From positions 1-45,416 of the forward strand of contig NZ_WJSP02000004.1 in the NCBI RefSeq assembly GCF_009720255.1: a stretch of DNA of 45,416 bases. The letters are read 5' to 3'. Position numbers and translations under genes: made by a program. The notes under the pieces are model-generated. The model was given only the letters and a program-made list of their open reading frames with translations. It was not told the origin of the DNA and ran no database searches. The stretch comes from Agromyces humi. Its GTDB lineage: Bacteria; Actinomycetota; Actinomycetes; Actinomycetales; Microbacteriaceae. Positions within the stretch are counted from its first letter, which is position 1. Each line of letters begins with the position of its first letter. Shown here one piece after another: positions 12,368-35,827 of the stretch.

Positions 12368-15088
12368 TCACACCACCACGTGAGCCGCGTCGAGGTGACG
12401 GCGGGCGGCGCTGATCGCGAGACGGGCGTGCTCCTTCGCGCCCACCTGCGCCACGAGCATCGCGCGCGGTATCTCCAGCGCGAACGGAAGGCCTGCAGGC
12501 AGGGCCGCCAGGATGCCGAGCATGTCGATCTCGCCTTCACCCGGGAAGAGACGCTCGAAGCGTGCCGTGTGGATCAGTCCCGCGGTGGTCGTGGGAATCT
12601 CCCCAGGCGCGTCGCACACGTGGGCGTAGTGGAACCATTCGGGTGGAAGCATCCGCAGGTCGTCCACGCTGGATCCCGACCGGGCGAAGTGCAGGAGGTC
12701 GATGAGCATTCCTGCGTTGGGTTGGTCGGCCGCCCGGAGGACTCGCGTGGCCTCGGTCAGGTTCGGGGTCTCCGTCCATGACGGGAACTCGAGGTCGATG
12801 GTCAGCCCGAGCGGCAACGCCAACTGGCACAGCTCGGCGAACCGATCGGTCTTGCGTGAGAAGTCCGCATCCGGCAGCTGCGTGATGACGTGACGGGCTC
12901 CGAGCTCGGCGCCCGCCTCCAGGAAGCGCAGGTAGTCGCGCGGACTGTCTCCCGACGTGAAGCGCGCGAGCTCGATATCGAGCACTTCGATGCCGGTCGC
13001 CGCGAGGTGCGTCTTCGTGGCCCGCATCAACGCCGGGTCGTATGCCAGCGGGTAGTGGGGTTCCTGCGCCGTGACCTTGGTCATCCGCACGCCCACATAG
13101 CGGTAGCCGGCGGCGGCAGCGGCGTCCACCAGTTCAGGAGGCGACAGGCTCAGCGCGGTCAGGTGAGCGAGCGAGTAGTCGTGCCGGTCTTCGGATGCCG
13201 CCTCGGTCGGTGCACTCGCCAGCATGCGCAACCGCTGCCGACGATGCGCGGCCATGCGCAACGGAACACTGTGGGGATCACCGAAACCCGCATAGCCGTT
13301 GACGCGCTGGACCACCTCGAAGAAGACGCGCGAGCCCAGCATCTCCGTGAAGAAGTGCAGGAACTCCCCGCGCTCGTCCCGGTCGTAGAGGATCGAGTGC
13401 TCGCGAAGGCGGTCGACGAACTCGGTCGGCAGGGACAGGCGGGTACCGAGGTCGTCATAGTAGTTGCCTGGCATCTCGAGGATCGGTGCTCCGCGCTCGC
13501 GCATGATCCTCGCGCACTCGATCGCGTCGTCGGTGGCGAAGGCGACGAGTTGCGGACTCGAGACGCCGGGCGCCCAATCGCCGCGCCGCAGCGGGGTCGT
13601 ACTCAGCATGATGCGCACGCGTCCACTCGGATCTCGTGCCGACCAACTGCGGATGAGTCCGAAGGGAGCAGTGATCTCCGCAGAGGCGCCCGGCTCGAGG
13701 CCGAGGACAGCGTGGAAGAACAGGGCGGATTGATCGAAGTCGTCGACCGACTCGGTGATGGACACATGATCGATTCCCCCGAGCATGGGGGAGGCGTCGT
13801 CCGTTGCACCGGTCGGACTGAAGTCGTCGAGCCACGCACGCTCGCCATCGGAGTTGCAGAAGAACAGCGCCGTGCCGTCGGGGGTGGCCACGGAGTCCAA
13901 GTCGGTCTCGTCGGGGCCGCGGCGTCGCGCGAGCTTCGCTGCCAGCAGCCGCTCAGCCCGTCGGATCGAGGCGGTCGGGTCCGTGCTCTCGACGGCGAGC
14001 GCGCTGATCGATGCGGTGGCCGGAGCGACCGAGCGGTCGGGGGCGAGATTCAGCAGGACCCGAGCGCGGCCCTGCTCCCACAGTTCCACCGGCTTGGAGC
14101 GATGCTGCCCGGCGTGCGCGAACCCGAGTGCGGCGAGGGCGCGCGAGACGAGGGGGGCGGATACCTCGTCCACGGCGAGCTCGGCGAACGCGAAGCCCTC
14201 CAGCCGCGGAGCCGGTGTCAGGTGGCCGTGAGGGAACAACTGGGATGCGTCTCCCGTGCCGCGGGCGGCGGCCGCCTCGGCAAGCGTGAGCATGGAGCGC
14301 ATCGCGTCGGTGGCGGCGTGCCTGGGATCCTCCTGCTGGTAGACATCGTTGAACACTTCGAGCGCGATCGGGCCGGTGTACCCCATGGTCAGGACCCGGC
14401 TGAGGAATCCAGCGATGTCGAGCGAGCCCTGTCCCGGGAACATCCGGTAGTGGAGGCTCCACTCTCGAACATCCATGTTCAATCGGGGCGCATCCGCGAG
14501 CTGGACGTGGAACACCTTCTCGCGGGCCACCCGGGCGATGGCGGTGGGATCGTTGTCGACGGACAGGACGTGGAAGCTGTCGAGGCACATCCCCAGCGCG
14601 GGGTGATCGACACGTTCGACGATGCGCCAGGCATCCTGGAAGGTGCGGACACGTCCCCAGGGCACGGCCTCGTACGCGAGCCGGAGTCCGCGCTGCTCGG
14701 CCCGGTCAGCCAGGAGGTTCAGCTGCTCCGCCGTGAGATCGTCGTCGTCGAGTCCGCTCGCGGTTCTCGACGAGCAGCACACGAGGACGCGCGCGCCGAG
14801 TTCGGACAGCAGGTCGAACTTCCGCTCGGCGTGACGCAGGCCGGCGACGAAGAGGTCGGGCGGAACCGTCTCGACGTGGAACGGCTGGTACACGTCGACC
14901 GACAGGCCGAGGCTCGCAGCCTCCTCGGCCATTCGGGCGGGCGACCACGGCGACATGACGAGGTCGTACTCGAGCATCTCCACCCCGGCGAATCCGGCCG
15001 CCGCCGCGGCGCGCAACTTGTCTTCGAGCGTGCCCGACAGGCACACGGTCGAGATGATGACGTTCTGCGCACCGGGGACGACGTTCAT
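12368..15088 (-). CDS. Three-domain fusion: QuiC-like 3-dehydroshikimate dehydratase barrel, HPPD/VOC-like domain, second xylose-isomerase-like barrel
   Basis: 906 aa, ATG at 15088 with GAGGAGG upstream. Residues 1-285: xylose-isomerase-like TIM barrel of QuiC/AsbF type; E140, D170, Q196 and E244 occupy the metal-ligand positions with near-QuiC spacing (E134, D165, Q191, E239). Residues about 295-620: 4-hydroxyphenylpyruvate-dioxygenase-like VOC region as in Pseudomonas QuiC1. The facial triad is incomplete: H441 and E591 are present, but the middle His is L514 (PQLVAFAT, against PQHLAFAT in the paralogue at 30466). Residues 638-906: an extra TIM barrel with possible ligands E767, D797, H800, H823 and E872, resembling free-standing sugar-phosphate isomerase/epimerases. 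QuiC enzymes convert 3-dehydroshikimate to protocatechuate. It is the last gene of a four-gene operon (49 bp after the ThDP gene). The extra barrel suggests a further isomerisation or dehydration step; substrate unknown. Confidence 0.85.
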   Translation of the reverse strand: MNVVPGAQNVIISTVCLSGTLEDKLRAAAAAGFAGVEMLEYDLVMSPWSPARMAEEAASLGLSVDVYQPFHVETVPPDLFVAGLRHAERKFDLLSELGARVLVCCSSRTASGLDDDDLTAEQLNLLADRAEQRGLRLAYEAVPWGRVRTFQDAWRIVERVDHPALGMCLDSFHVLSVDNDPTAIARVAREKVFHVQLADAPRLNMDVREWSLHYRMFPGQGSLDIAGFLSRVLTMGYTGPIALEVFNDVYQQEDPRHAATDAMRSMLTLAEAAAARGTGDASQLFPHGHLTPAPRLEGFAFAELAVDEVSAPLVSRALAALGFAHAGQHRSKPVELWEQGRARVLLNLAPDRSVAPATASISALAVESTDPTASIRRAERLLAAKLARRRGPDETDLDSVATPDGTALFFCNSDGERAWLDDFSPTGATDDASPMLGGIDHVSITESVDDFDQSALFFHAVLGLEPGASAEITAPFGLIRSWSARDPSGRVRIMLSTTPLRRGDWAPGVSSPQLVAFATDDAIECARIMRERGAPILEMPGNYYDDLGTRLSLPTEFVDRLREHSILYDRDERGEFLHFFTEMLGSRVFFEVVQRVNGYAGFGDPHSVPLRMAAHRRQRLRMLASAPTEAASEDRHDYSLAHLTALSLSPPELVDAAAAAGYRYVGVRMTKVTAQEPHYPLAYDPALMRATKTHLAATGIEVLDIELARFTSGDSPRDYLRFLEAGAELGARHVITQLPDADFSRKTDRFAELCQLALPLGLTIDLEFPSWTETPNLTEATRVLRAADQPNAGMLIDLLHFARSGSSVDDLRMLPPEWFHYAHVCDAPGEIPTTTAGLIHTARFERLFPGEGEIDMLGILAALPAGLPFALEIPRAMLVAQVGAKEHARLAISAARRHLDAAHVVV

Positions 15089-15137
15089 GAGTGAACCTCC
15101 TCACGTGCGAGCGATTTCGGGCTGGTGACCGCGGTGC

Positions 15138-16901
15138 TCAGTGCGTCGCGACGTGTTCGATCGCCGCATCGGGCGAGTAGATGTCGAGGATGTTCCAGTG
15201 GCCCGTGGTCGGCGTCGGCACATTCACCATGGACACGTCGATCACGACCGGACTGCCGAGCGCGATCGCACGCTCGAGGGCCGGCTTGAACTCCGCAGCG
15301 GAGTCGACCTTGATGCCGGTGACCCCGTAGGCTTCCGCGATCGCGGCGAAGTTCGTGTACATCGGATCGTCCGCGTTGCCGAAGACCGTCCCGTAGGTGG
15401 TGTCGAACGCGGCCTTCTCGAGCCCTGCGATGGTGCCGAAGGCGTTGTTGTTCATGACGACCCAGACGACGGGAACGTTCTCCTCCCGAGCGGTGGCGAG
15501 CACCGCCGGGTTCTGTCCGAAGCCGCCGTCGCCCACGAGGGAGACGACGACGCGATCCGGGCGGGCGATCTTGGCCCCGACGGCGGCGGGCGCCCCGAAG
15601 CCCATGGTCGCGAATCCGCCCGGCGTGAGGAACGTGCCGGGAGTGAGGATGTCGAACTGCTGGCCGACGCCGTTCTTGTTCCAGCCCACGTCCGTGGTGA
15701 TGATCGCGTCGGCCGGCAGCACCTCCCGAGTCTCGGAGAGGATCCGTTCGGGTCGCATCGGCCAGGCGTCGGAGGCCTGGGCAGCCGCATTCTGGAGCTT
15801 CACCGTCGCGCGACTCACGGCGATCTGCGCCAGCAGCTCGTCGCGCCGCACGCCTGCCGGGGCGAGGCGGCGCGCGACACGGACGAGCACGGCCAGCGCG
15901 GACTTGAGGTCGGCCAGCGCGCCGATCTCCAGCGGGTAGTTGCGTCCGAGCTCGGCAGGATCGACGTCGATCTGCATGAGCTTCGTCGTGGGCACGTCGA
16001 AGGTGTACTCGGGGTACCACGAGCTCGAGTCGGCTTCCGCGAACCGGGTGCCCAGTGCGAGGATCCAGTCGGCCGTTCGCGTCGTCTCGTTGGTGAACGC
16101 CGTTCCCCAGAATCCCGTCATGCCAAGGACCAGGGCGCTGTCGTCGGGCATCGCGCCCTTGCCCATGAGGCTGTGCGCGATGGGGAGCGACAGCAGCGAG
16201 GCGAATTCGGCGAGCTCGGATGCCGCGTCGGCAGCGACGATGCCGCCACCGACGTACAGCACGGGCCGGTCGGCATCCAGGAGGTGCTGCACGATCCGCT
16301 CGGCCACCGCTTCATCGAGGCTGGGCCTCACCAGCGAACGGGTGTTCCCGACCACCTTGTCGAACAGCGCGACGTCGATCTCCGCGGAGAACACGTCCAT
16401 GGGCACGTCGACGAGGACGGGACCGGGTCGGCCGCTCTCCGCGAGGGTGAATGCCTTGTCCAGCACCTCGGCGATGAGGTGGGGCTGGTCGACCCGCCAT
16501 GCACGCTTGACGAACGGCCGGTAGATCTCGTACTGCGCCGCGTCGGCGTGGAGATTGATCTCTTGGTGCGGATGCTTCCCGAAGTAGTGGGTGGGCACGT
16601 CGCCGGCGATGACGACCATCGGGATCGAGTCGAGTGCGGCGTTGGCCACCCCGGTCGTGGCATTCGTCAGGCCCGGGCCGAGGTGCGTCAGCACGACTCC
16701 CGCCCGCTTGGCCACCCGTGCGTAGCCGTCGGCGGCGTGGGCGGCGATCTGCTCGTGGCGCACGTTCACGAAGGAGATGCGCTCGCTCTTCTCGAGGGCT
16801 GCGAGCAGCGCGATGTTCGTGTGTCCGCACAGCCCGAAGACGTGCTCGACCTCGCGTGCCTCCAGGTATCGAACGATCTGGTTGGAAACCAGGTCCTTCA
16901 T
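15138..16901 (-). CDS. Thiamine-diphosphate-dependent enzyme, acetolactate-synthase-like
   Basis: 587 aa, ATG at 16901 with AAGGAG 6 nt upstream (the GTG at 16916 lacks this). Three-domain ThDP fold: N-terminal PYR domain with the catalytic Glu (RHEQIAAHAADGYAR, E50), central domain, C-terminal PP domain with the GDGG...NNN ThDP/Mg motif at about residues 455-484. 'FGLCGHTNIALLAALE' and 'HLGPGLTNATTGVANA' are ALS/benzoylformate-decarboxylase family features. Possible reactions: decarboxylation or carboligation of a 2-oxo acid, or cleavage of a 2-hydroxyacyl-CoA. It is not a biosynthetic ilvB by context: no ilvN follows, and it sits between a citryl-CoA-lyase-like gene and a QuiC fusion. Specific substrate unknown. 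Confidence 0.88.
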   Translation of the reverse strand: MKDLVSNQIVRYLEAREVEHVFGLCGHTNIALLAALEKSERISFVNVRHEQIAAHAADGYARVAKRAGVVLTHLGPGLTNATTGVANAALDSIPMVVIAGDVPTHYFGKHPHQEINLHADAAQYEIYRPFVKRAWRVDQPHLIAEVLDKAFTLAESGRPGPVLVDVPMDVFSAEIDVALFDKVVGNTRSLVRPSLDEAVAERIVQHLLDADRPVLYVGGGIVAADAASELAEFASLLSLPIAHSLMGKGAMPDDSALVLGMTGFWGTAFTNETTRTADWILALGTRFAEADSSSWYPEYTFDVPTTKLMQIDVDPAELGRNYPLEIGALADLKSALAVLVRVARRLAPAGVRRDELLAQIAVSRATVKLQNAAAQASDAWPMRPERILSETREVLPADAIITTDVGWNKNGVGQQFDILTPGTFLTPGGFATMGFGAPAAVGAKIARPDRVVVSLVGDGGFGQNPAVLATAREENVPVVWVVMNNNAFGTIAGLEKAAFDTTYGTVFGNADDPMYTNFAAIAEAYGVTGIKVDSAAEFKPALERAIALGSPVVIDVSMVNVPTPTTGHWNILDIYSPDAAIEHVATH

Positions 16902-16912
16902 GGCGTTCTCCT

Positions 16913-17797
16913 TCACTCGTCGCCTTCGTGCGGGACCGATCGGCGAGCCGGACCCGAGTAGGTGTATCCGATGGACTTCGGCATCGGACCCTTGATGCGG
17001 CCACCCTGCGTCATCTGCTCGACGGTGTGGGCGAGGATGCCCACCGAGCGCGCGAGGATGAAGACACCGCGCCCGAGCTCAGGGCTGAACCCGAGCTCGC
17101 AGTAGATGACGGCCGTCACTCCGTCGACGTTCATGGGAATGGGCTTGGGCCTGCCCTCGTTGATCGCGTGCTCGACCGCGCGGCCGATCGCCGCGAAGCG
17201 GCCGCTCACCACCCCCTCCGCCGCCGCCGCGTCGACGAGCGCCAGCAGGCGAGGCGAGCGTGGATCGAGCGGATGGAATCGATGGCCGAATCCGGGGAAA
17301 TAGCGGACGCCCGCATCGCGGTGCCGTTGCAGGACGAGCCGGACCGCCTCCTCGAGGTCGTCCGATCGTTCGAGCTCGGCGTCGACCTCGAGGTACAACT
17401 CCATGCACTGCTGGCCCGGACCGCCATGGACGTCGTCGAGCACGTTGATCGCCGACGCCATCGCGCCGTTGACGGGCACACCGCAGGTCGTCGCCATCCG
17501 GGCGATCGCGATCGACGGCGCCTGCGGTCCGTGGTCGACGGATGCCACGAGTGCCGTCTCGAAGAGGGCGGCCTGAGCGCGCGAGGGCAGTTCGCCGCGC
17601 AGCATGAGCCAGATGGTGTCGACGAATCCGACGTTGCCGATGAGCTCCTGGATGGGATAGCCGCGCAGTGCGATCTCCCCGGGGCTGATGTCGATGATGT
17701 CCGTTCGCCACCAGCGGCGTGCTTCGTCGACGAGGGCTTCCGGCGACGTTCCGGTCACCGGCTCGCGCTCGGCACCGTCGTTCCCCGGTGCGGTCAC
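16913..17797 (-). CDS. Short citrate-synthase-fold protein (citryl-CoA-lyase-like)
   Basis: 294 aa from GTG 17797, which overlaps the stop of the aldehyde dehydrogenase gene (GTGA). Citrate synthases are about 370-430 aa; this one lacks much of the N-terminal part, as do stand-alone citryl-CoA lyases. All three catalytic residues are recognisable: H124 in DDVHGGPGQQ, H172 in GFGHRFHPLDPR, D225 in MNVDGVTAV. It could therefore cleave or form a citryl-CoA-like thioester or condense an acyl-CoA with a 2-oxo acid. Co-translation with an acyl-CoA-forming aldehyde dehydrogenase supports a CoA-thioester substrate. It ends 12 bp before the ThDP gene's ATG. Confidence 0.82.
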   Translation of the reverse strand: MTAPGNDGAEREPVTGTSPEALVDEARRWWRTDIIDISPGEIALRGYPIQELIGNVGFVDTIWLMLRGELPSRAQAALFETALVASVDHGPQAPSIAIARMATTCGVPVNGAMASAINVLDDVHGGPGQQCMELYLEVDAELERSDDLEEAVRLVLQRHRDAGVRYFPGFGHRFHPLDPRSPRLLALVDAAAAEGVVSGRFAAIGRAVEHAINEGRPKPIPMNVDGVTAVIYCELGFSPELGRGVFILARSVGILAHTVEQMTQGGRIKGPMPKSIGYTYSGPARRSVPHEGDE

Positions 17798-19245
17798 GGG
17801 GCCGCCGCCAGTGTCGCGTCCGACGACTCGAGCGCTTCGTCGTAGAAGTCCCCGAACAGCTCCTCGTCGGATGGCCGGTCCTCGGCGATGGTGCGCGCGA
17901 CCCACGTCGTGTTCAGGTAGTGACGGAGGGAGACGTTCTCGGAGGTGATGTTGCCGCCCCAGGTGCCGCACCCCATGGACGAGGTCATGGGCATCCCGTT
18001 CGTGAACGATCCCGCGTTCGCCTTCGAGTTCGGCTGGCGGACCATGATCCGCGAGACCGGCATGTGGCGGGCGAAGTAGTCGATGTGCGCATCGTCGGTG
18101 GAGGCGATGCCGCACGAGTGGCCCTTGCCGCCGATGTCGTAGAGCCGCTTCGCGAGCTCGACGCCGTCCTCGAAGCTGCCCTCGTAGGCGTGGACCGCCA
18201 TCAGGGTGGTCAACTTCTCCTTGCAGAACTGGCGGTCGTCGCCGATGCCGTCGCCCTCGACCAGGATGAACCTGCGGTCCGCTGGGATGTCGAATCCGGC
18301 GGCCCTCGCGAGCGCCTGCGGCGACACCGCCACGGTGTCTGGCAGCCGGTGCCCTTCCTCGTCCCAGATCACCGACTGCAGCGCCGCTCGCTCATCCGAC
18401 GTCGCGAGGTATCCGCCTTCGGCCTGGAGCGCATCGAGCATCTCCCGATACCGCCCCGCGGGCACCAGGACGTTCCCGTCCGCCGAACAGCCCGAGCCGA
18501 AGTCCGACGTCTTGGACAGCATGCAGTTGCGTGCCGTCTCCTTCAGGTCGGCGGTCTCATCGACGAACTCGGTCGCATTGCCCGCCCCCACTCCGTAGGC
18601 GGGCGTTCCCGAGCTGTAGGCCGCTCGGACGAGGCCCTGACCGCCCGTGGCGATCACGAGGTCGGATCGCCGCATGATCTCCTGCGACGCCGCCAGGCTC
18701 GGCAGCGTGATGCACTGCAGGATGTCGGCGGGCGCGCCCTCCGCCTCCAGCGCCTCGCGCATGAGCCGGACGGTCTCGAAGGTCGTGTGCTTCGACCGCG
18801 GATGCGGCGAGAACACCACGACGTCGCGGGCCTTGATCGCGTAGATGGCGTTGCCGGCAGGGGTCAGGTCGGGGTTCGTCGTCGGGACGACGCATCCGAT
18901 GATCCCGACCGGCTTCCCGTACTTGACGAGCCCCTTCTCGGGATCCTCCTCGATGATCCCCACCGAGGGACTGCGCAGCGCATCCCGAAGGACGCCGCGG
19001 ATCTTCATCCGCTTGTTCATGCGGCTGTCGAAGTCGCCGAGGCCGGACTCCTCGATTCCCATCCCCACCAGCCGATGGAATGCGGAGCGGTTCGCGACCG
19101 CCCACGCGACGGCCTGGATCAGGCGGTCGACGCGAGCCTGGTCATAGGTCTCGATGATCGCGAGCGCGGCCTGCGCTCGGGCGAAGACGTCATCGAGTTC
19201 CTGCTCCTGCTCAGGGGAGAGGGACTTGGGTGTTGAAGCGGCCAT
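17794..19245 (-). CDS. CoA-acylating aldehyde dehydrogenase (sulfoacetaldehyde dehydrogenase / AdhE-N type)
   Basis: 483 aa, ATG at 19245 with GGAG 6 nt before it; upstream in-frame Met codons fall in the operator-bearing promoter region. ALDH fold with 'IIGCVVPTTNPDLTPAGNAI' (coenzyme entry region of the acylating group), 'GGQGLVRAAYSSGTPAYGVG' and the catalytic Cys C253 in GSGCSADGN. These are marks of the CoA-dependent acetaldehyde/sulfoacetaldehyde/succinate-semialdehyde dehydrogenases, which oxidise an aldehyde to an acyl-CoA with NAD(P)+. It opens the operon with the citryl-CoA-lyase-like and ThDP genes, so its aldehyde may come from the ThDP enzyme. No sulfonate genes are near, so the sulfoacetaldehyde label should not be taken literally. 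Confidence 0.85.
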   Translation of the reverse strand: MAASTPKSLSPEQEQELDDVFARAQAALAIIETYDQARVDRLIQAVAWAVANRSAFHRLVGMGIEESGLGDFDSRMNKRMKIRGVLRDALRSPSVGIIEEDPEKGLVKYGKPVGIIGCVVPTTNPDLTPAGNAIYAIKARDVVVFSPHPRSKHTTFETVRLMREALEAEGAPADILQCITLPSLAASQEIMRRSDLVIATGGQGLVRAAYSSGTPAYGVGAGNATEFVDETADLKETARNCMLSKTSDFGSGCSADGNVLVPAGRYREMLDALQAEGGYLATSDERAALQSVIWDEEGHRLPDTVAVSPQALARAAGFDIPADRRFILVEGDGIGDDRQFCKEKLTTLMAVHAYEGSFEDGVELAKRLYDIGGKGHSCGIASTDDAHIDYFARHMPVSRIMVRQPNSKANAGSFTNGMPMTSSMGCGTWGGNITSENVSLRHYLNTTWVARTIAEDRPSDEELFGDFYDEALESSDATLAAAP

Positions 19246-19398: not shown

Positions 19399-19567
19399 GC
19401 GGTTGCCCGCCCATGCCCTCGGGGTTAGCGTCCGAGCGCCAGCCGGATTCACCGACCCGCGGATTCACCGATCCCGAGGTCGGAGGAGCCGGGCGGCACC
19501 CCAGGGCGACGTCGGAAGGGCGAGAGCTCATCCGTCGCCGGATCAACGACGATCAAGGAGTCAACGG

Positions 19568-22258
19568 ATGCGCAAACGACTGACCACGAGGTTGGGGGTC
19601 GCGGGAATCGGGGCACTGATGGTGTTCGCGGTGGCCGCGTCCCCCGCGTACGGACTTGCGGGTTCCGCAGAACCGGCCCCGCCCGCGGGGCTGACGGGCC
19701 TCGAGCCGACCGGCGCCGACATGCCGACCGTCGGCGGCAACCTCGGCAATCAGCACTATTCGGGTCTGACGGATATCACCAAGCAGAACCTGAAGGATCT
19801 CGCACCGGCCTGGCGGACGCACCTGTCGGCCGTCGCGCCCGCGTCGACCAACGTCGGACAGCAGACGACGCCGATCGTCGTCGGCGGCGTCATCTACCTC
19901 GATACGCCGAGCGGCGGCGTCATCGCCGTCGACGGCGTGACGGGGGACGCCATCTGGAAGTGGGACAAGCCCGCCTACGGAACCTCGGGCACTCGGCGCG
20001 GCGTCTCGGCGGGCGACGGGAAGATCTTCACCCTGGCCGGCGGCAACCGCGTGGTCGCGCTCGACCAGGCGACAGGCGCTGAGGTGTGGGCGGTGCAGCC
20101 CACCGGGCCCAACGGCGAAGACCTCGGCCGCGTCGGCAAGGTCGCGACCGTGTACTCCGACGGGGTCGTGTACGCCCACGCTGCGGACGGCGACCGCGGT
20201 GCGGTCGTCGCGCTGGACGCGAGCGACGGCCACTACCTCTGGCACTTCTTCGGCGGACCGAAGCGCGGCGAGCTCTTCACGGGCCTGGACGGCGCGACCT
20301 TCGACGCGTCGGCGACCTGGGGCCCCGTGCAGGCCGACGGCACAGACTGCGCGGAAGAGGGCGGTGCGACGTCGTGGATGCACGGCGCCGTCGACCCCGA
20401 ACTGGGCTACTACATCATGACCTTCGGCAACGCGCGCAGCTGCACGTCGTCGCAGAACGCCTCGGGGCGCCCCGGCGACAACCTGTTCTCGGACACGATG
20501 GTCGCCGTCGACGCACGGACCGGCACGTTCAAGTGGCACTACCAGTCCATCCACCACGATGTGTGGGACATGGACAACGTGCACCCGCCGACGCTCGCCG
20601 ACATCACGGTCGACGGTGAGGAGCGAAAGGTCGCCTTCTACGGCAGCAAGTCAGGCCACCAGTTCGTCATCGACCGCACCAACGGCAAGCCCGTGCTGCC
20701 CGTGACCGAGAAGCCCGTGATCACGGACTCGCGCCAGCACAACGCAGCGACGCAGCCCATGCCGGAGACGCGGCTCATGCCGGACTGCGTCGTGTGGGAG
20801 AAACTCGACGCTGACAACGTCCCGGGAAACCCCTGGCGCGGTGTGCCGAACTACAACGGGTACCAGGCGGATGCCGAGGGGAATCTCGTGTTCAACCCCG
20901 ACAGCTACGTCTCGGTCGACGAGCCGTTCCTCAACTATCCTGCGGGTTCGTCGGGACACCGCGAGGGCTGCCTGTACGACCCGCAGTTCCAAGCGCCGAT
21001 CCTGTCGACGACGAGTCAGAACGGCGGCGGCGACTGGTCGAACAACTCCTACAGCCAGAGCACGAACCTGGTCTACTTCCCGTACGGCACGAACCCGGTC
21101 GCGCACTTTGACGGCGCAGCCTCCAACGGCCTGCGTGCCATCGGGCAGTACCAGACCGGTGGCATCCTGGCCTACGACGCGTCGACCGGCGAGGTCGCGT
21201 GGCGCAACCACCTCGGCACGGACATGTCGCACGGCCAAGGACCGCTGACGACGGCATCCGACCTGCTCTTCGTCGGACAGATCGATGGCGAGGTCCTGGC
21301 GATGGATGCCGCTGACGGCAGCGTGCTCTGGAGCTTCCAGACGGGCTCCGGCATCGCATCGGCGCCGGTCACCTACGAGGTCGACGGCGAGCAGTACGTC
21401 GCCGTGTTCGCCGCCGGATCGACCAATCCGTACGGGGCATCCGTCACGCAGGGCGACTCGCTCTGGGCCTTCAAGCTCGGCGGGACCTATACGACCGAGT
21501 CGGGAAGCCAGGAGGGACCCGACACGGCACCACTGTCGATCCGTCGGCCGGTGGGCGGTGCGGCCGTCGCCGGTGAGACGGTCGGCAACACGGTGCTCCT
21601 CGCACGGACCAGCCGCACTGCCGACACCGCCGCGGCGCGAGACAGTGTGTCCCAGAACGGGATGCAGCCCACGCACCTGCGCGTGCCCGTCGGCACGACG
21701 GTGACGTTCCGGAACCCCGGGGCGGAGACGTTCCCGAACTTCCCGAACCTGAAGCCGCATTGCGCGACGCAGTTCTTCGAGGGTGAGTTCGACGTCGAGC
21801 TGCAGCCGGGAGAGACGTACCAGCACACGTTCGACCGTGCCGGCGAGTACTTCTTCAACGACTGCACCGATCCGCGGCCGACCGGCAAGATCGAGGTGTA
21901 CCTCGAGCCGCAGGATCAGCCGGGGGCGCTGAGGTTCACGCCGGCCCGGCTCGATCTCGGTTCGGGAACCGGGCTCTTCACCGGGGTGAACGGAACGATC
22001 TCGGCTCACTTCGAACTGCCATCGGGATACGAATACGAAAGCGGTGCCGTCCTGCTTGCTCCGCTCTCGCCGGCTCCCATCCCGGCCGCGAAGGTGACGG
22101 CGAACAAGAACCGGATCATCGTCCAGTTCGAGGCCGCCGACGTCGACAACAACGTGCCGACCGGCGAGGTGACGTTGACCCTGAGGGCCAACGTCCTCAA
22201 CACCCAAGGCGTGCAGGAACAACTCTCGTCGAGCGCGACGGTGACCATCCGCAAGTAG
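19568..22258 (+). CDS. Secreted PQQ-dependent dehydrogenase with C-terminal cupredoxin-like domain
   Basis: 896 aa, ATG at 19568 with AAGGAG 7 nt upstream. Sec signal peptide (basic start, GVAGIGALMVFAVAASPAYG). Residues about 55-640 are an eight-bladed PQQ beta-propeller: repeats such as 'GVIAVDGVTGDAIWKWD' and 'VLAMDAADGSVLWSFQTGSG', and the quinate/glucose-dehydrogenase-like HHDVWDMD near 328-335. Residues about 680-775 are cupredoxin-like (HLRVPVGTTVTFRN ... EYFFNDCTDPRPTGKIEVY), but the Cys is not followed by the His/Met ligands of a type 1 copper site. Residues about 780-896 form a beta-sandwich. It probably oxidises a polyol or carbocyclic acid such as quinate at the cell surface. No PQQ synthesis genes are in the window. 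The distinct adjacent Cys-Cys of methanol dehydrogenases is absent. Confidence 0.88.
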   Translation: MRKRLTTRLGVAGIGALMVFAVAASPAYGLAGSAEPAPPAGLTGLEPTGADMPTVGGNLGNQHYSGLTDITKQNLKDLAPAWRTHLSAVAPASTNVGQQTTPIVVGGVIYLDTPSGGVIAVDGVTGDAIWKWDKPAYGTSGTRRGVSAGDGKIFTLAGGNRVVALDQATGAEVWAVQPTGPNGEDLGRVGKVATVYSDGVVYAHAADGDRGAVVALDASDGHYLWHFFGGPKRGELFTGLDGATFDASATWGPVQADGTDCAEEGGATSWMHGAVDPELGYYIMTFGNARSCTSSQNASGRPGDNLFSDTMVAVDARTGTFKWHYQSIHHDVWDMDNVHPPTLADITVDGEERKVAFYGSKSGHQFVIDRTNGKPVLPVTEKPVITDSRQHNAATQPMPETRLMPDCVVWEKLDADNVPGNPWRGVPNYNGYQADAEGNLVFNPDSYVSVDEPFLNYPAGSSGHREGCLYDPQFQAPILSTTSQNGGGDWSNNSYSQSTNLVYFPYGTNPVAHFDGAASNGLRAIGQYQTGGILAYDASTGEVAWRNHLGTDMSHGQGPLTTASDLLFVGQIDGEVLAMDAADGSVLWSFQTGSGIASAPVTYEVDGEQYVAVFAAGSTNPYGASVTQGDSLWAFKLGGTYTTESGSQEGPDTAPLSIRRPVGGAAVAGETVGNTVLLARTSRTADTAAARDSVSQNGMQPTHLRVPVGTTVTFRNPGAETFPNFPNLKPHCATQFFEGEFDVELQPGETYQHTFDRAGEYFFNDCTDPRPTGKIEVYLEPQDQPGALRFTPARLDLGSGTGLFTGVNGTISAHFELPSGYEYESGAVLLAPLSPAPIPAAKVTANKNRIIVQFEAADVDNNVPTGEVTLTLRANVLNTQGVQEQLSSSATVTIRK

Positions 22259-22436: not shown

Positions 22437-22469
22437 ATGCACCCCGACACCGTGGCGGTGACGCCATGA
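22437..22469 (+). CDS. Ten-codon leader ORF coupled to dctQ
   Basis: MHPDTVAVTP, ATG at 22437 preceded by GAGAGG, stop TGA at 22467-22469 overlapping the dctQ ATG (ATGA). The dctQ ATG itself has no recognisable Shine-Dalgarno, so ribosomes may load here and reinitiate. It is probably a translational-coupling leader, with no function of its own peptide assumed. Chance is possible at this size. Confidence 0.45.
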   Translation: MHPDTVAVTP

Positions 22470-23122
22470 CCGACAAGGAACCGGGGCCGGAGCCCGAGGG
22501 GGACCAGCCCGCCGAGCCTGAGAACGCGACGCGGAAGGCGTCAGAGGCGGCCCTCGGCGACTCGATCTACCCTCATACCGACACCTTCTATGCTGGGCCC
22601 GAACTCAACAAGGGCGTCCCAACCGACCCCGGCTTCATTCGGGTCCTCTCGGCAGTCGAGATCACGATCGGCGTCACGCTCTTCACCTTGATCGTCTTCG
22701 GCGTCATGTACCAAGTGCTGGGGCGGTACTTCCCATCGATCAGCTGGGTCGGCGCCGGCGAGATCGCCCTGATGTCGATGGTGGCCATGACCTTCATCAC
22801 GACGGGCTATCTGGTTGGACGCAACGGGCACATCGTGCTCGAGATGTTCGACGAACTCCTTGCCGGATCCCGGCTCTTCGTCGCCTTGCGGGTCGTCTCG
22901 GCGGTCATCATGGTCATCATCAGCCTGGCCCTCGCGTATGAGGCGTTCGTGAAGATCGAGACCGAGTGGGGCAGGCTCAGCGCGGCGATGCATGTGCCGA
23001 TGGGCGTGCTGTACCTCTTCGCCCTCGTCGGCTTCCTTTCGGCAGCGATCCACTCCTCCTTCAAGATCCCGTTCGCGAACCGTCCGGAGCGCAAGCTCGA
23101 CATCGGCGAGATGGAAGGCTGA
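22466..23122 (+). CDS. dctQ: TRAP transporter small membrane subunit (DctQ)
   Basis: 218 aa from ATG 22466. A long acidic N-terminal extension (about 55 aa, rich in E, P and D) precedes four transmembrane helices (residues about 68-200). The conserved DctQ features are present: an early helix followed by 'QVLGRYFPSISWVGAGEIA', then 'VGRNGHIVLEMFDELL'. DctQ links DctP and DctM in solute:Na+ symport of C4-dicarboxylate-like or other acids. An upstream start at 22394 is less likely. The extension is unusual for the family and is predicted cytoplasmic. It is followed after 3 bp by dctM. Confidence 0.85.
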   Translation: MTDKEPGPEPEGDQPAEPENATRKASEAALGDSIYPHTDTFYAGPELNKGVPTDPGFIRVLSAVEITIGVTLFTLIVFGVMYQVLGRYFPSISWVGAGEIALMSMVAMTFITTGYLVGRNGHIVLEMFDELLAGSRLFVALRVVSAVIMVIISLALAYEAFVKIETEWGRLSAAMHVPMGVLYLFALVGFLSAAIHSSFKIPFANRPERKLDIGEMEG

Positions 23123-23125
23123 CAC

Positions 23126-24406
23126 TTGGATCTCTGGCTCTACATCCTGCTGTTCGTCATCCTGCTGCTGCTGAGAGTCCCCGTCGCGTTCGCGATGATC
23201 GGGTCGAGCATGCTGTACTTCTACAGCCACGGGCTCTCGGCGGGCTATGCGATCTCCTCGATCGTCAACGGCATCAACAGCTTCCCGCTGCTCGCGGTCC
23301 CGCTGTTCATCTTCGTCGGAACCATTGCCAATCACCTGGGCATCGCCACGCGGCTCTACGACCTGGCGCGGGCGCTCCTGCCGCGGCTCCCGGGCAACCT
23401 CGCATACGTGAACCTCGGTACGGCGATCGGCTTCTCCTGGATCAGCGGCTCCGCGCTCGCCGATGCAGCGTCGACGAGCAAAGTCCAGATCCCTCAGATG
23501 CTCAAGGCGGGTTACCCGTACGGCTTCTCGGCCGGCCTGACGGCAGCGGGCTCGCTGATGAGCACCGTCATGCCGCCCAGCATCCCCGCCGTGCTCTTCG
23601 CGGCGACCGCGTCCATCTCCACCGGTGCCCTGTTCGCAGGCTCGATCATCCCTGCCATGCTCATGGCGGTCGGGCTGGCCGCCTATGTCTTCTTCTGGGT
23701 CCGGCGCCATCCCGACGTCGCGGTGAGCCGCCCCTTCGTCGGCTCGATGCTCGGCAAGGCGGCCGTGCGGGTGATCGGACCGGCGTTGCTCCCCGTGATC
23801 ATCCTCGGCGGCATCTTCAGTGGGCTGTTCACACCCACCGAGAGCGCCGGCATCGCGGCGGTGTACATGCTCATCCTCGGTGCGATCTACCGCACGCTGA
23901 ACTGGCGCGTGTTCTGGAAGTCCGCCAAGGAGACGGTCGTCATCTCGGGCGGGATCCTCCTGATCCTGGGCGCGTCGAACCTCATGGGCCAAGTCCTGGC
24001 GCGCGAGCAGGTCTCGCGCATGCTGGGGGAGTGGCTGACAGGATTCACCGACAATCCGCTCGTGTTCCTGCTGATGCTCAACGTGCTGCTGATCCTGCTC
24101 GGCATCCCGCTCGAGGCGCCGCCGGTGATCCTGGTGCTCGTGCCGATCCTCATGCCGATCATCGCGCAGTTCGGGATCGATCCCGTACAACTCGGCGTCA
24201 TCATGATCCTCAACCTGATGATCGGTTCGTTGACACCACCGGTCGGGGCAGTGCTGTTCGTCGTCGGCTCGATCACTCGCAGGCCGATGGGAGAGCTCTT
24301 CCGCGGCATCCTTCCCTTCCTGATCCCGCTCGGGGCGGTGCTGCTGCTCCTGACCCTGTTCCCGGTCATCGTCACGAGCCTGCCGACGCTGCTCGGCCTG
24401 ATGTAG
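23126..24406 (+). CDS. dctM: TRAP transporter large permease (DctM)
   Basis: 426 aa, TTG start at 23126 with GGAAGG 8 nt upstream; no ATG or GTG fits the conserved N-terminus (LWLYILLFVILLLLRVPVAF). It has at least ten hydrophobic helices; 'NSFPLLAVPLFIFVGTIANH', 'SGSALADAASTSKVQIPQML' and 'GYPYGFSAGLTAAGSLMSTV' followed by MPPSIP are DctM signatures. It forms the elevator-type channel in the cytoplasmic membrane and works with DctQ and the binding protein at 27667. The gene for an AroQ-like enzyme follows after 9 bp, in the same transcript, which indicates a carbocyclic acid as cargo. Confidence 0.92.
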   Translation: MDLWLYILLFVILLLLRVPVAFAMIGSSMLYFYSHGLSAGYAISSIVNGINSFPLLAVPLFIFVGTIANHLGIATRLYDLARALLPRLPGNLAYVNLGTAIGFSWISGSALADAASTSKVQIPQMLKAGYPYGFSAGLTAAGSLMSTVMPPSIPAVLFAATASISTGALFAGSIIPAMLMAVGLAAYVFFWVRRHPDVAVSRPFVGSMLGKAAVRVIGPALLPVIILGGIFSGLFTPTESAGIAAVYMLILGAIYRTLNWRVFWKSAKETVVISGGILLILGASNLMGQVLAREQVSRMLGEWLTGFTDNPLVFLLMLNVLLILLGIPLEAPPVILVLVPILMPIIAQFGIDPVQLGVIMILNLMIGSLTPPVGAVLFVVGSITRRPMGELFRGILPFLIPLGAVLLLLTLFPVIVTSLPTLLGLM

Positions 24407-24415
24407 GAGACATCC

Positions 24416-24862
24416 ATGTCGAGGACCCTCTTCGTGCTGAACGGATCGAACTTGAACATGCTCGGTCTACGCCAGCCTGAGGTGTACGGCTCATCGACGC
24501 TGGACGATGTTCGCGGCGACTGCGAACGGGTGGCGAGCGAGTTGGGATTCGACCTCTTCTTCGCGCAATCCAATGCCGAGCACGAGATCGTGGAGTGGTT
24601 GCACGAGGCGTTCCGGCGGCAGGCGACCGTCGTGATCAACCCCGCGGGTTTCAGTTTCCAGTCCGTGCCGATCCTCGACGCCCTTCGAATGCTCACCACC
24701 CCTGTGGTCGAGGTGCACATCACCAACATCCATGCCCGGGATGCGGTCTACCACCACTCCCTCATGTCGTCGGTCGCACGGGTGGTGATCGCCGGCGCGG
24801 GCGTCTACGGATATGAACTGGCGATTCGTGCGGCCGACCGATTGGCGCCACAGGGCACGTAG
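24416..24862 (+). CDS. Type II 3-dehydroquinase homologue with altered substrate pocket
   Basis: 148 aa, the normal length for AroQ. Catalytic core: R19 and Y24 (lid loop LGLRQPEVYG), N75 and H101 align at the same numbers as in M. tuberculosis AroQ. Two residues known there to contact ring hydroxyls are changed: H81 is F (INPAGFSFQS instead of the usual G-x-T-H-T-S), and R112 is Y (HARDAVYHHS instead of HAREEFRRHS). S103 is T. The fold and acid/base chemistry (dehydration of a cyclic hydroxy-ketone acid) should be kept, with a different or less hydroxylated substrate. It is co-transcribed with dctQM. A role in aromatic amino acid synthesis is unlikely. No gene symbol is given because the activity is in doubt. 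Confidence 0.85.
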   Translation: MSRTLFVLNGSNLNMLGLRQPEVYGSSTLDDVRGDCERVASELGFDLFFAQSNAEHEIVEWLHEAFRRQATVVINPAGFSFQSVPILDALRMLTTPVVEVHITNIHARDAVYHHSLMSSVARVVIAGAGVYGYELAIRAADRLAPQGT

Positions 24863-24888: not shown

Positions 24889-26250
24889 TCAGCTGCGGGC
24901 GATCGAGTCGGCGGCTCCGATCCCGAACACGAGTGCCTTCGTCAGCGCTGTTCCGGTCATGTAGGACGCGCCGTGGAAACCACCGACGACCTCACCTGCG
25001 GCGTACAGCCCCTCGATGCGGCTTCCGTCCACCCGCTTCACCGCCGTGTCGGCCCCGACGCTCAGTCCGCCGTACGTCGAGGTCATCGCCGTCACGGCGG
25101 CGTAGGCGTAGAACGGCGGGGTCTCCAAGCGCACCAGCGAGCCCACTCCGTTCACGAGACCCGTCCGTCCGAACGGGTCGTCGCGGCGCCCTGACACGCT
25201 CTCGTTGTACTGCGCAACGGTGCGCTCGAGGCGTTCCGGCGGGATACCGAGCTCACGCCCGAGCGCTGAGATCGTCGGTGCGCTCACGAGGTGCCCGAGC
25301 TCCTCGAGGCGCTCCATGTCCGACAGCGGAACGCCGGGCTTCGAACGGGCCCGCACGACGGCATCGAAGATCTGGAAGGCAGTCCGGCCCGGCTGGCCCA
25401 GCACAGCGGACCCGAGGACCTTGTACGACGCTGACTCGTCCGCGAAGCGCTGACCGTGGACGTTCACGAGGATCGCGCCGAGGTAGTTGGCGGTCAACAG
25501 CTCGTGCTCGTCGTCGCTCGTTTCCGCGTGCTGGCCGTAGGTGCCGGCGACGTGCCCGATGTCGGCGAGGCCGGCACCGAGCATCCATGCCATTCGGAGC
25601 CCGTCGCCGGTGTTGCCCGCGCCTCCGTACGGCATGGCAGCAGCCTGATCCGGCACGAACAGGTCGAGCAGCTCGCGCGAGCGCGAGAACCCGCCGCTGG
25701 CGAGGACGACCCCTGAGGAGGCGAAGAGGTCTCCGGTCGCGGACGTGATGCCGACCACCCGGGATCCGTCCGTGACGAGGTCACCGGCCGGGTGGCCGGT
25801 GAGGATGACGGCACCCGCCGCGACGGCTTCGTCCTCGAGGTGCGCGAGCAGATCGCCGATGCGGATCAGGTGTGCGCGGGCGACGGTCATTCCGGCACTG
25901 ACCTTGAGTTCATCGGTCCATGCCCCCGCACGATCGATCGCCGCGACCGCGTCGGCCTGCCGGTCGACGAGCGCGCGCAGCAGTGTCTCGTCGGCGAAGC
26001 CTCCGCCGGTCGCCGCCATGTCCGCCAGGAACAGGTCGTCGGAATCCTCGACCCCCGCTCGGCGCTGGAGCGTCGAGCCGGAGAACGCGAACCAACCTCC
26101 GCTCAGGGCGGAGCTGCCTCCCAGCCGATCGCGCTTCTCCACGAGGGCGACCCTCAGCCCGTTCGTGGCGAGGCGGTGCGTCGCGGCCAGGCCGGCGAGT
26201 CCTCCGCCGACGATGATCGCGTCGAACACCCGACCGGACGGCGTCGTCAT
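24889..26250 (-). CDS. FAD-dependent dehydrogenase, fumarate-reductase/flavocytochrome-c fold
   Basis: 453 aa, ATG at 26250, 10 bp after the stop of the upstream Gfo/Idh gene. N-terminal dinucleotide-binding motif (AIIVGGGLAGLAATHRLATN, then E at VALVEKRD), 'GGSSALSGGWF', and a C-terminal FAD-domain closing motif (GLYAAGEVVGGFHGASYMTG). This fold covers fumarate and urocanate reductases, tricarballylate dehydrogenase TcuA and 3-ketosteroid dehydrogenases, all of which act on C-C single/double bonds next to a carbonyl or carboxyl group. A desaturation or reduction of a cyclic acid in this pathway is plausible. It is convergent with the aroQ-like gene (26 bp apart). Confidence 0.85.
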   Translation of the reverse strand: MTTPSGRVFDAIIVGGGLAGLAATHRLATNGLRVALVEKRDRLGGSSALSGGWFAFSGSTLQRRAGVEDSDDLFLADMAATGGGFADETLLRALVDRQADAVAAIDRAGAWTDELKVSAGMTVARAHLIRIGDLLAHLEDEAVAAGAVILTGHPAGDLVTDGSRVVGITSATGDLFASSGVVLASGGFSRSRELLDLFVPDQAAAMPYGGAGNTGDGLRMAWMLGAGLADIGHVAGTYGQHAETSDDEHELLTANYLGAILVNVHGQRFADESASYKVLGSAVLGQPGRTAFQIFDAVVRARSKPGVPLSDMERLEELGHLVSAPTISALGRELGIPPERLERTVAQYNESVSGRRDDPFGRTGLVNGVGSLVRLETPPFYAYAAVTAMTSTYGGLSVGADTAVKRVDGSRIEGLYAAGEVVGGFHGASYMTGTALTKALVFGIGAADSIARS

Positions 26251-27488: not shown

Positions 27489-27666
27489 CGCTTTGCGAAC
27501 CGATCGAAGTCCGTAAGAGTCGGCACTGCCACCGAGCCGTAGCTTGACAGCGTGGTCGACGACGATCTCGCCCCGTGCGGAGCATGTCGATTGCATGTCG
27601 CGCTTCGGCCACCGATCTCACGTCGGCGCTTGCACGAAGACGTGCGAAGAAAAAGAGGAGAGTCCC

Positions 27667-28725
27667 ATGGGCACAGCCCGATCGACGCGCCGAGGCTTGA
27701 TCGCCGCGTCGGTGCTCGCAGCAACCACCCTCGTCGTCACCGGTTGTTCCGGCGGCGGCGGCGCTCCCGAAGAGTCCGGTGACGCGGGCGCTTCGGACAA
27801 CAAGCCCGTGACCATCACTGTCGCGACGAGCCAGAACGAGCAGACCCCGAACTACTTCTGCGGCGTCGAGCTGCTCAAGGAGCGACTCGAGGAAGCCGAC
27901 ATCGGCTTCACCGTCGAGCTGTATCCGGCAAGTCAGCTCGGCCCCGACGCAGACCGCTTCCCGCTCGTGCAGGCCGGCGACATCGATATCGACCTGCAGG
28001 GTGCGTCCGCGCTGAGCGCCACGTACGAGCCGATCGGCGTCGTCGATGCCGCCTACGCGTTCAATGACGTGGACCACGCGTTCAAGTGGATCGACGAGAG
28101 CTCGGAAGACCTGTTCTCGGGTTTCCATGAGGCCACCGGCGTCAACATCGTCGACGGGTGGTTCTTCGGCAACCGCACCTTCACCACCAAGGACGTCGAG
28201 GTGCACGGCCCCGATGACCTGGAGGGTGTGCCGATCCGATTCCCGAACTCCCCGATCTTCCTCGCGAATGCCGAAGCGCTCGGAGTGACGAGCCCCGTGT
28301 CGGTGGCCGTCGAGGAGGTCTACACCGCCCTGCAGCAGGGGATCGCGGTGGGCCAGGAGAACCCGATCGTCGCGACGCGCTCGTCCAGCTACGATGAGGT
28401 CCTCAACACCGCCATCTTGAACGACCACAACGTCGGCATCCACTGGATCCTCGTCAGCGACAAGACGTACGAGAAGATGAGCGAGGAACAGACGGCGCTG
28501 CTCGAGGAGACCGTCCACGACATCCGCCCCGAGAACCGGGAATGCGTCGAGGAGGCGACCGAGGAGATCCTCGACGAGTATCGCGCGAACGACGCGTTCA
28601 CGGTGATCGAGAAGGAGGACATCGACATGGATGCCTTCATCAGTCAGGCGGAGGAGTTCTTCGAGGGCTACTTCACCGGTGAGAACCTCGAGGCATACCA
28701 GGCGATCCGCGAGACCGCGGACTGA
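27667..28725 (+). CDS. dctP: TRAP transporter substrate-binding lipoprotein (DctP)
   Basis: 352 aa, ATG at 27667 with AGGAG 6-10 nt before it. Lipoprotein signal: RRGLIAASVLAATTLVVTGC, lipobox VTGC followed by SGGGG. The mature part is a DctP-type extracytoplasmic receptor: 'YPASQLGPDADRFPLVQAGD' (the conserved S-Q-L-G motif), 'GVPIRFPNSPIFLANAEALG' including the Arg that salt-bridges a substrate carboxylate in this family, and 'VYTALQQGIAVGQENP'. The ligand is therefore probably a carboxylate. It is 3.3 kb away from dctQM, separated by an AroQ-like gene and two opposite-strand genes, which is unusual because the three TRAP genes are normally adjacent. Confidence 0.92.
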   Translation: MGTARSTRRGLIAASVLAATTLVVTGCSGGGGAPEESGDAGASDNKPVTITVATSQNEQTPNYFCGVELLKERLEEADIGFTVELYPASQLGPDADRFPLVQAGDIDIDLQGASALSATYEPIGVVDAAYAFNDVDHAFKWIDESSEDLFSGFHEATGVNIVDGWFFGNRTFTTKDVEVHGPDDLEGVPIRFPNSPIFLANAEALGVTSPVSVAVEEVYTALQQGIAVGQENPIVATRSSSYDEVLNTAILNDHNVGIHWILVSDKTYEKMSEEQTALLEETVHDIRPENRECVEEATEEILDEYRANDAFTVIEKEDIDMDAFISQAEEFFEGYFTGENLEAYQAIRETAD

Positions 28726-29570: not shown

Positions 29571-29573
29571 GTC

Positions 29574-34968: not shown

Positions 34969-34971
34969 CGG

Positions 34972-35712: not shown

Positions 35713-35774
35713 GTCGGCAGTATCCGCCGACTTCGGCAGGGGCGGCAAGCGCGGTCTGCAATGCCGACGGGGCG

Positions 35775-35791
35775 GTCCCACTGAGTGGGAC
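35775..35791 (-). promoter_or_regulatory. IclR-type operator, perfect palindrome, site 7
   Basis: GTCCCACT-G-AGTGGGAC, a perfect 17-bp palindrome 63 bp upstream of iclR 4. Read on the minus strand and extended by two bases it is GTGTCCCACTCAGTGGGAC, aligning with the TRAP-promoter site at 14 of 19 positions. It shows the symmetric form of the regional motif. Confidence 0.7.
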
Positions 35792-35827
35792 ACACCCTGC
35801 TCGACCACGTCGTCTCGCCGGCGTGGA

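Follow-up and report, generated by a model that had tools for sequence, protein, structure and literature searches.

A conserved ThDP enzyme module beside hydroaromatic genes in Agromyces humi and other bacteria: a candidate hydrolytic route for quinate and shikimate

Introduction

Plants contain the acids quinate and shikimate in abundance, and in the usual description bacteria break them down by way of protocatechuate, with O2 serving to open its ring. Ilyobacter insuetus is said to be a fermentative specialist for hydroaromatic compounds, and to our knowledge no enzymes have been assigned to its fermentation. Two cyclic-dione hydrolases dependent on thiamine diphosphate (ThDP) are known, IolD of myo-inositol catabolism and cyclohexane-1,2-dione hydrolase (CDH). 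CDH, as excerpts of a review describe it, cleaves a C–C bond of cyclohexane-1,2-dione, and its variant H28A/N484A couples pyruvate with ketones instead (PMC12247030). Here we analyze a window of 45,416 nt (the whole stretch of DNA under study, positions 1–45,416 of contig NZ_WJSP02000004.1, assembly GCF_009720255.1) from Agromyces humi, and in it an operon around positions 12368–19245 that encodes a coenzyme A (CoA)-acylating aldehyde dehydrogenase (ALDH; hereafter A), a citryl-CoA-lyase-like protein (C), a ThDP enzyme (T), and a three-part QuiC fusion ending in a triosephosphate isomerase (TIM) barrel, termed F4.

The best single reading of this operon, to which we give about an even chance of being right, is a quinate/shikimate catabolic module in which the alicyclic ring is opened hydrolytically and no protocatechuate is formed. 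The reading builds on computed features, namely the module itself, its gene company, the active-site residues, the exchange of the ALDH for a CoA-transferase (CoT), and the missing PcaH or LigB matches in some genomes. Among the matches listed from open-access full text, the scope of the search, with subscription papers outside it, no description of the trio of A, C, and T was found, in agreement with an earlier note on this DNA that knew of no described pathway with this gene set.

A conserved trio beside hydroaromatic genes

All four genes lie on the minus strand. A (17794..19245, 483 amino acids, PF00171 Aldedh) overlaps by 4 bp with C (16913..17797, 294 amino acids with a GTG start, a short citrate-synthase fold, NF004864), which is separated by 11 bp (16901 to 16913) from T (15138..16901, 587 amino acids, three TPP domains), and T by 49 bp (15088 to 15138) from the fusion (12368..15088, 906 amino acids, with PF01261 in two stretches, Glyoxalase_5, and Glyoxalase). 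The earlier note had placed these genes and their catalytic residues correctly (Glu50 and GDG/NN of the ThDP enzyme, H124/H172/D225 of the lyase, C253 of the ALDH); its overlap and 49-bp gap stand, and its 12 bp between C and T should read 11.

A census of gene neighborhoods, with one genome per species recruited by the lyase, covered the best 80 of 84 loci, each scored by tblastn for 15 reference-gene groups, with T called at ≥50% identity. T is present at 50 of the 80 lyase loci, and these 50 carry A (33), F4 (37), an AroE-type dehydrogenase (28), a 3-dehydroquinate dehydratase (DHQase; 30), a 3-dehydroshikimate dehydratase (DSD; 25), and a pyrroloquinoline quinone (PQQ) dehydrogenase (14). 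One or more of F4, AroE-type, DHQase, DSD, or PQQ genes are present at 45/50 T loci, versus 2/30 loci without T, and the exceptions sit on short contigs: the five T loci lacking such genes are on contigs of at most 8,045 bases, and the two T-free loci having them are on contigs below 6 kb. The suggestion that these genes form one module with quinate/shikimate-type genes is thereby borne out, and the outcome that would have spoken against it, the four families lying mostly apart in related genomes, was not what the 45/50 loci revealed. T loci occur in Actinomycetota, Pseudomonadota, and metagenome-assembled genomes (MAGs) labeled as Acidobacteriaceae, Gemmatimonadetes, Phycisphaerales, and Armatimonadota. 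Given that the catalytic triad of C is retained in all 77 aligned sequences (see below) and that the neighborhood recurs across several phyla, the association is more than chance, and the trio is very likely a conserved module tied to hydroaromatic genes.

Recruitment by T instead retrieved nine of 299 relatives, the genome of the window included, and in all eight others the lyase lies nearby. Four of these eight (G470, G472, G497, and G603) are the genomes of census loci L015, L009, L012, and L018, and four are new (G480, G676, G636, and G624); in G636, none of F4, AroE, DHQase, DSD, or PQQ genes was matched within its 20 kb.

The step upstream of the lyase varies. With the window counted, A–C–T is contiguous at 25/51 loci and CoT–C–T at 11/51; CoT occurs without A at 13 of the 50 T loci, eight of which carry a non-acylating ALDH, and both A and CoT are matched at eight. 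This exchange of ALDH and CoA-transferase fits an aldehyde that is turned into an acyl-CoA. A gene row on plasmid pAZKH of Azoarcus sp. KH32C comprises HPPD-like (4-hydroxyphenylpyruvate dioxygenase-like), sugar-isomerase-like, CoA-transferase, citryl-CoA lyase, ThDP enzyme, shikimate dehydrogenase, and aroD genes, the sugar-isomerase-like gene being a DSD by tblastn. A TauE/SafE-type exporter gene (L133, 19580–20329) follows aroD there, with a putative sulfate exporter encoded upstream; members of the TauE/SafE-type family (f59) also lie near T at L039 and L043.

The ThDP enzyme

A script check located Glu50, GDGG at position 457, and MNNN downstream in T. Its best model is acetolactate synthase TIGR00118 (416.1 bits, cut-off 538.35 not reached), and it likewise stays below the cut-offs of Xsc (NF005713, 298 of 620 bits) and IolD (TIGR04377, 239.3 of 715 bits). 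For an alignment, 49 T sequences were taken from the window, from L006, and from 47 T loci (the other three of the 50, L025, L037, and L044, being too short). They were set beside one CDH, three IolD that exceed their cut-off, and 18 further ThDP paralogues, which come from seven genomes and were drawn from the ThDP matches listed, with a partial IolD (L095) and L112 left out. The CDH is that of the Aromatoleum diolicum genome (L122) and matches PDB 2pgn along its entire length. His27 is present in 49/49 T and corresponds to His28 of CDH (1/1); the column is shared by 3/3 IolD and by 0/18 other paralogues. Asp101, found in 49/49 T, 3/3 IolD, and 0/18 other paralogues, marks a column confined to T and IolD. 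His112 is also invariant in T (49/49), with Phe at this place in 17/18 paralogues, and is presumably at the site of the first His of the HH motif that excerpts of a published study describe for pyruvate decarboxylases (PMC3534367).

Because of the His27 signature, T is probably a ring-opening hydrolase that cleaves a C–C bond of a cyclic 1,2-dione hydrolytically, not the plain aldehyde-making decarboxylase that the earlier note had supposed. It resembles a dione hydrolase at one key position, yet belongs to neither IolD nor CDH.

The aldehyde dehydrogenase and the lyase

A retains Cys253, again by script check. Its best NCBIfam model is SauS (NF047625; 452.5 bits, curated cut-off 600 not reached), and its closest relatives in PDB are an acylating succinate-semialdehyde dehydrogenase (8cei) and an acetylating acetaldehyde dehydrogenase (5j78). 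A would turn the ring-opened semialdehyde into a CoA thioester and plausibly supplies it to C, as had been suggested before.

C is the sole gene of the operon over a curated cut-off, scoring 440.4 bits to the citryl-CoA lyase model NF004864 (cut-off 261), with citryl-CoA lyase 6hxp as a relative in PDB. The doubt of the earlier note about the common names finds support in "sulfoacetaldehyde dehydrogenase" and "acetolactate synthase" both staying under their cut-offs. The triad of C, His124/His172/Asp225, is retained in 77/77 sequences, the window counted. C would split a 3-hydroxy-3-carboxy-acyl-CoA into acetyl-CoA and a 2-oxo acid; where the earlier note had left open whether it condenses or cleaves, we read it as cleaving. 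In the comparison of C, the lyases of three cut contigs (L024, L028, and L033), scored as without T in the census, were grouped with the T-linked ones. An attempt to read substrate specificity from the lyase sequence was given up, as there are no T-specific residues and no clean clade.

The QuiC fusion and its third domain

The fusion consists of a DSD-type TIM barrel (residues ~1–285), an HPPD-like vicinal oxygen chelate (VOC) part (~291–635), and the metal TIM barrel F4 (636–906; 12371..13183, minus strand). The earlier note had recognized a QuiC-type fusion but had noticed neither this third domain nor a second, two-domain QuiC at 30466–32313. Against the QuiC model NF042435, the fusion scores 522 bits, with its best stretch at residues 12–619, and does not reach the cut-off of 1200; this cut-off is narrow, since it is not passed by any match from the 30 + 11 genomes searched.

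The DSD barrel aligns throughout with QuiC1 (5hmq) and has the Glu, Asp, Gln, and Glu that we take to be its metal ligands. The VOC part does not have the complete His-His-Glu triad of HPPD, at the positions where we presume it to lie, the second His being Leu in the protein of the window; beside T, at least one ligand is gone at the aligned place in 26/26 complete rows (in L022, a His stands in the adjacent column, and L088 is partial). QuiC1 5hmq retains all three triad residues. The idea that a protocatechuate dioxygenase might be concealed in the VOC part was dropped, the metal triad being incomplete. According to excerpts of a published study, the C-terminal domain of QsuB has no activity on protocatechuate (PMC7442255).

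F4, a PF01261 TIM barrel, has a metal site of four ligands and the DSD/IolI/IolE fold (AlphaFold predicted local distance difference test 93.6). An alignment of 23 sequences shows conserved Glu132, Asp162, His or Gln, and Glu237, which by analogy with the fold family we take to be metal ligands. Among the structures listed, the nearest to it are IolI (1i60), 2g0w, and the DSD of QuiC1 (5hmq), with template-modeling scores of 0.76–0.77 and 23–26% identity, followed by AsbF and IolE, between which numerous epimerases and isomerases rank with similar Z. By analogy, F4 would be an IolE/DSD-like dehydratase acting on 3-dehydroquinate. At many other loci it is encoded by a gene of its own, and it is found in 43 of 52 T genomes (E ≤ 1e-30). 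A search for QuiC/DSD in 30 T genomes (E ≤ 1e-15) left eight without a match, four of which have F4 (G411, G415, G418, and G443, all MAGs); their existence suggests that the module does not need DSD.

On plasmids of Gemmobacter and Rhodococcus (L135 and L136), neither among the three records with T at E ≤ 1e-100, F4 adjoins an FAD-dependent oxidoreductase gene near a shikimate dehydrogenase gene, with no T in the stretch. Such loci perhaps serve to convert saturated hydroaromatics to protocatechuate by desaturation.

A proposed ring-opening pathway

Every substrate, the dione, the regiochemistry, and the products given here are proposed by analogy with the chemistry of IolE, IolD, CDH, and citryl-CoA lyase. 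In quinate, as in citrate and homocitrate, one carbon (C1 of quinate) bears both OH and COOH and is flanked by CH2 on either side. Quinate would be oxidized to 3-dehydroquinate by a quinoprotein or an AroE-type dehydrogenase, and shikimate would enter via 3-dehydroshikimate with AroQ running in reverse. Next, one of the metal TIM barrels, F4 being the likeliest candidate, would take off the C5 hydroxyl in a step like that of IolE on inosose, and the product would be 1-hydroxy-3,4-dioxocyclohexane-1-carboxylate. T would hydrolyze the C3–C4 bond of this 1,2-dione, as IolD and CDH do with theirs, to OHC-CH2-C(OH)(COOH)-CH2-CH2-COOH, with the carboxylate at C4 and the aldehyde at C3. The acylating ALDH, or in other species apparently a non-acylating ALDH with CoA-transferase, would convert the latter to homocitryl-CoA, from which C may release acetyl-CoA (quinate C2 and C3) and 2-oxoglutarate (C7, C1, C6, C5, and C4). 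Mass and redox balance: C7H12O6 + H2O gives C2H4O2 + C5H6O5 + 4 H, equal to one alcohol and one aldehyde oxidation, and the dehydration and the hydrolysis cancel.

In its full form, the proposal is that several phyla possess an oxygen-independent, carbon-conserving route from quinate and shikimate to acetyl-CoA and 2-oxoglutarate via a cyclic 1,2-dione, ThDP-dependent hydrolysis, and a homocitryl-CoA lyase, without protocatechuate, and that the third domain of the actinobacterial QuiC-like fusion is the dehydratase; we advance it tentatively, at somewhat below an even chance. If true, such a hydrolytic route would save all seven carbons with no oxygenase needed, would tie hydroaromatic to inositol catabolism mechanistically, would make anaerobic hydroaromatic degradation testable, and would give a function to three families that are automatically named acetolactate synthase, sulfoacetaldehyde dehydrogenase, and citryl-CoA lyase, names that leave their company unexplained.

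Protocatechuate dioxygenases in genomes with T

PcaH over cut-off occurs in 23 of the 52 T genomes and LigB-family proteins in 30. Neither was matched (E ≤ 1e-3) in eight (G343, which is closed, G404, G418, G430, G432, G435, G439, and G443), several of which are MAGs and possibly incomplete; this absence speaks to cleavage of the 3,4- and 4,5-types only, genes for protocatechuate 2,3-cleavage and decarboxylation being outside the search. Of three single-contig genomes considered as dioxygenase-free cases, only G343 stands: in G480, a LigB-family protein scores 114 bits to PF02900 (its best NCBIfam models are class III extradiol dioxygenases, under cut-off), and G676 has a partial one.

The genome of the window has both forms of QuiC plus PcaH. 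Among the actinobacterial genomes searched for both QuiC and PcaH, all 11 with an ordinary QuiC (G000, G396–G398, G400–G403, and G405–G407) have PcaH over cut-off, compared with three of the eight having only the fused form (G399, G442, and G444, as opposed to G343, G404, G408, G480, and G676). This split is suggestive, although these genomes are related.

Weighing the reading against its rivals

Several observations count against the hydrolytic reading. Residues His31, His76, and Asn484 of CDH, the two His of which we assume to be functionally important, are replaced in T by Ile30, Leu74, and Ile491, and T is overall more similar to acetolactate-synthase-type paralogues (32–35% identity) than to IolD (27–28%); a His in the position of His27 could serve an aldehyde-releasing decarboxylase as well. 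F4 was not found in nine of the 52 T genomes (E ≤ 1e-30), including Microbacterium isolates G400 and G403, in which the trio is intact and the nearest TIM barrel is the DSD of an ordinary QuiC, and it occurs without T at the plasmid loci L135 and L136; for both reasons, F4 was dropped as a marker of the module. In G343, a closed genome, the fusion gene is oriented convergently to the trio and hence does not share an operon with it. The census groups had been picked for recurring at these very loci. At five loci with CoT and no A (L041, L043, L053, L085, and L087), no non-acylating ALDH was found at the 40% identity limit, nor does the gene table of Azoarcus sp. KH32C, which is incomplete, list one. 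The alignment of 77 C sequences shows neither a residue that tells lyases linked to T from those without it nor a single clade of the linked ones, so C itself gives no preference for homocitryl-CoA over citryl-CoA. In addition, a DSD with conserved ligands together with a DHQase at many T loci fits a protocatechuate branch as well.

A first rival is a shunt from protocatechuate 4,5-cleavage, in which T would decarboxylate 4-carboxy-4-hydroxy-2-oxoadipate to citryl semialdehyde, the ALDH would form citryl-CoA, and the lyase would yield acetyl-CoA and oxaloacetate. The shunt needs no lyase substrate other than the annotated one and suits both the DSD (25/50) and DHQase (30/50) genes at T loci and the LigB-family proteins in 30/52 T genomes, but was weakened by the lack of a LigB match in 22/52, among them the genome of the window and all 12 of G396–G407. 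No protocatechuate 4,5-pathway model appears among the 13 neighbor families whose representatives were annotated, and an amidohydrolase at six loci best matches 4-sulfomuconolactone hydrolase with 86 bits against a cut-off of 500; we consider the shunt improbable. A similarly small chance goes to T as an acyloin lyase in the style of benzaldehyde lyase, cutting 3-dehydroquinate between C3 and C4 to a dialdehyde that the ALDH and the lyase would convert to acetyl-CoA and a C5 hydroxy-oxo acid, with F4 an isomerase or acting at a later step. This would account for isolates with the trio and without F4 (G400 and G403), and the invariant active-site His residues of T also fit an aldehyde-releasing lyase; against it stand the His27 column common to both known cyclic-dione hydrolases and the C5 product, which needs more enzymes, none of which was recognized at the loci.

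If T were instead an ordinary 2-oxo-acid decarboxylase in another hydroaromatic branch, it would act after ring opening by an unrecognized enzyme. Its overall likeness to acetolactate-synthase-type enzymes and His112 (49/49), presumably at the HH-motif position drawn from excerpts on pyruvate decarboxylases (PMC3534367), favor this view, but no other ring-opening enzyme appears among the 13 annotated neighbor families, the remaining families not having been annotated, and we judge it unlikely. Degradation of taurine, sulfoacetaldehyde, or another sulfonate, as the automatic names would have it, is extremely improbable: SauS is the best ALDH model (452 bits), Xsc is among the ThDP matches (298 bits), and KH32C has its TauE/SafE-type exporter after aroD and the putative sulfate exporter upstream, but both scores are under the curated cut-offs (600 and 620), quinate/shikimate-type genes stand at 45/50 T loci, and the 13 annotated families include no sulfonate enzyme. 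The hydrolytic opening of a quinate- or shikimate-derived ring remains our best single reading.

Surroundings of the operon and variant loci

Divergent from the operon lies a gene for a PQQ-type quinoprotein dehydrogenase (19565..22258, plus strand; PF01011, 262 bits), which scores 208 bits to the glucose/quinate/shikimate family model TIGR03074, under its cut-off of 833, and would oxidize quinate or shikimate in the periplasm. On the same strand follow the small permease DctQ (22454..23122, PF04290) and the large permease DctM (23126..24406, PF06808; TIGR00786 over cut-off) of a tripartite ATP-independent periplasmic (TRAP) transporter, and a type II DHQase, AroQ (24416..24862; PF01220; NF003806, 177 bits, cut-off 171), the enzyme that interconverts 3-dehydroquinate and 3-dehydroshikimate. 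A flavoprotein gene on the minus strand (24889..26244, FAD_binding_2, PF00890) recurs beside the cluster in related actinobacteria; among the 25 best NCBIfam models listed for it, none is over its own cut-off. Further plus-strand genes encode the TRAP solute-binding protein DctP (27544..28725; NF037995, 116 bits, cut-off 50), an ordinary two-domain QuiC homologue (30466..32313; NF042435, 537 bits over model positions 1–632, cut-off 1200 not reached), and a quinate/shikimate dehydrogenase of the AroE family (32609..33520; NF009201, 381 bits, cut-off 235). IclR-type regulators at 28806–30332 and 34198–35808 flank this second QuiC/AroE stretch. The second QuiC, 15 kb from the fused form and also recovered in the whole-genome search, probably belongs to a protocatechuate-forming route separate from the module. 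Its presence means that two routes could coexist, and the window resembles a hydroaromatic catabolic island, probably with two routes.

Other loci differ in company. In Armatimonadota (L070, 1030–8851, and L071), an operon combines a transporter and a cupin (both by eye), an acylating ALDH, a type I DHQase, a Zn alcohol dehydrogenase, T, an IclR-like gene, CoT, and the lyase; matches of the alcohol dehydrogenase include scyllo-inosose dehydrogenase, all under cut-off, and these genomes have no F4 at E ≤ 1e-30. A carboxylesterase-family gene adjoins T at Steroidobacter-type loci (L050, 12633–14324; L051, L078, and L047), which would suit quinate release from chlorogenate-type esters. In Microbacterium (L013, 12602–13558; L011 and L016), an isocitrate-lyase/phosphoenolpyruvate-mutase-like gene (by eye) lies downstream of T, at L013 and L016 in place of the missing fusion gene. 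Five T-free loci of Enterovibrio and Grimontia (L055, L058, L061, L065, and L069) combine the lyase, CoT, and tripartite-tricarboxylate-transporter-like genes (by eye), perhaps for a citrate or tricarboxylate route via a citryl-CoA-like ester.

Comparison with known systems

A shares the fold and the catalytic Cys with SauS and differs in scoring below the family cut-off and in its gene company. C is a member of the citryl-CoA lyase family NF004864 by score and triad; what sets it apart is that its substrate would probably be made from an aldehyde or by CoA-transferase, citryl-CoA as a substrate being a prediction from the family model. With the route from quinate and shikimate to protocatechuate (QuiA/QuiB/QuiC; QsuABCD in Corynebacterium glutamicum), many loci have the dehydrogenase, DHQase, and DSD genes in common, whereas the trio and F4 are no part of that route. 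T shares with CDH (PDB 2pgn, Aromatoleum diolicum 22Lin) the ThDP fold, the catalytic Glu, and His28, the counterpart of its His27, but has no equivalents of His31, His76, and Asn484; the genome of A. diolicum contains both the CDH (L122) and a T locus (L039). Myo-inositol catabolism, with IolE and IolD, offers the same proposed sequence of a dehydrogenase, a TIM-barrel dehydratase, and a ThDP-dependent cyclic-dione hydrolase, along with the His27 and Asp101 columns. It differs in the class of substrate and in that T scores below the IolD cut-off (239 versus 715), and the inositol route continues with IolB, IolC, and IolJ, in place of which the module has thioester and lyase steps.

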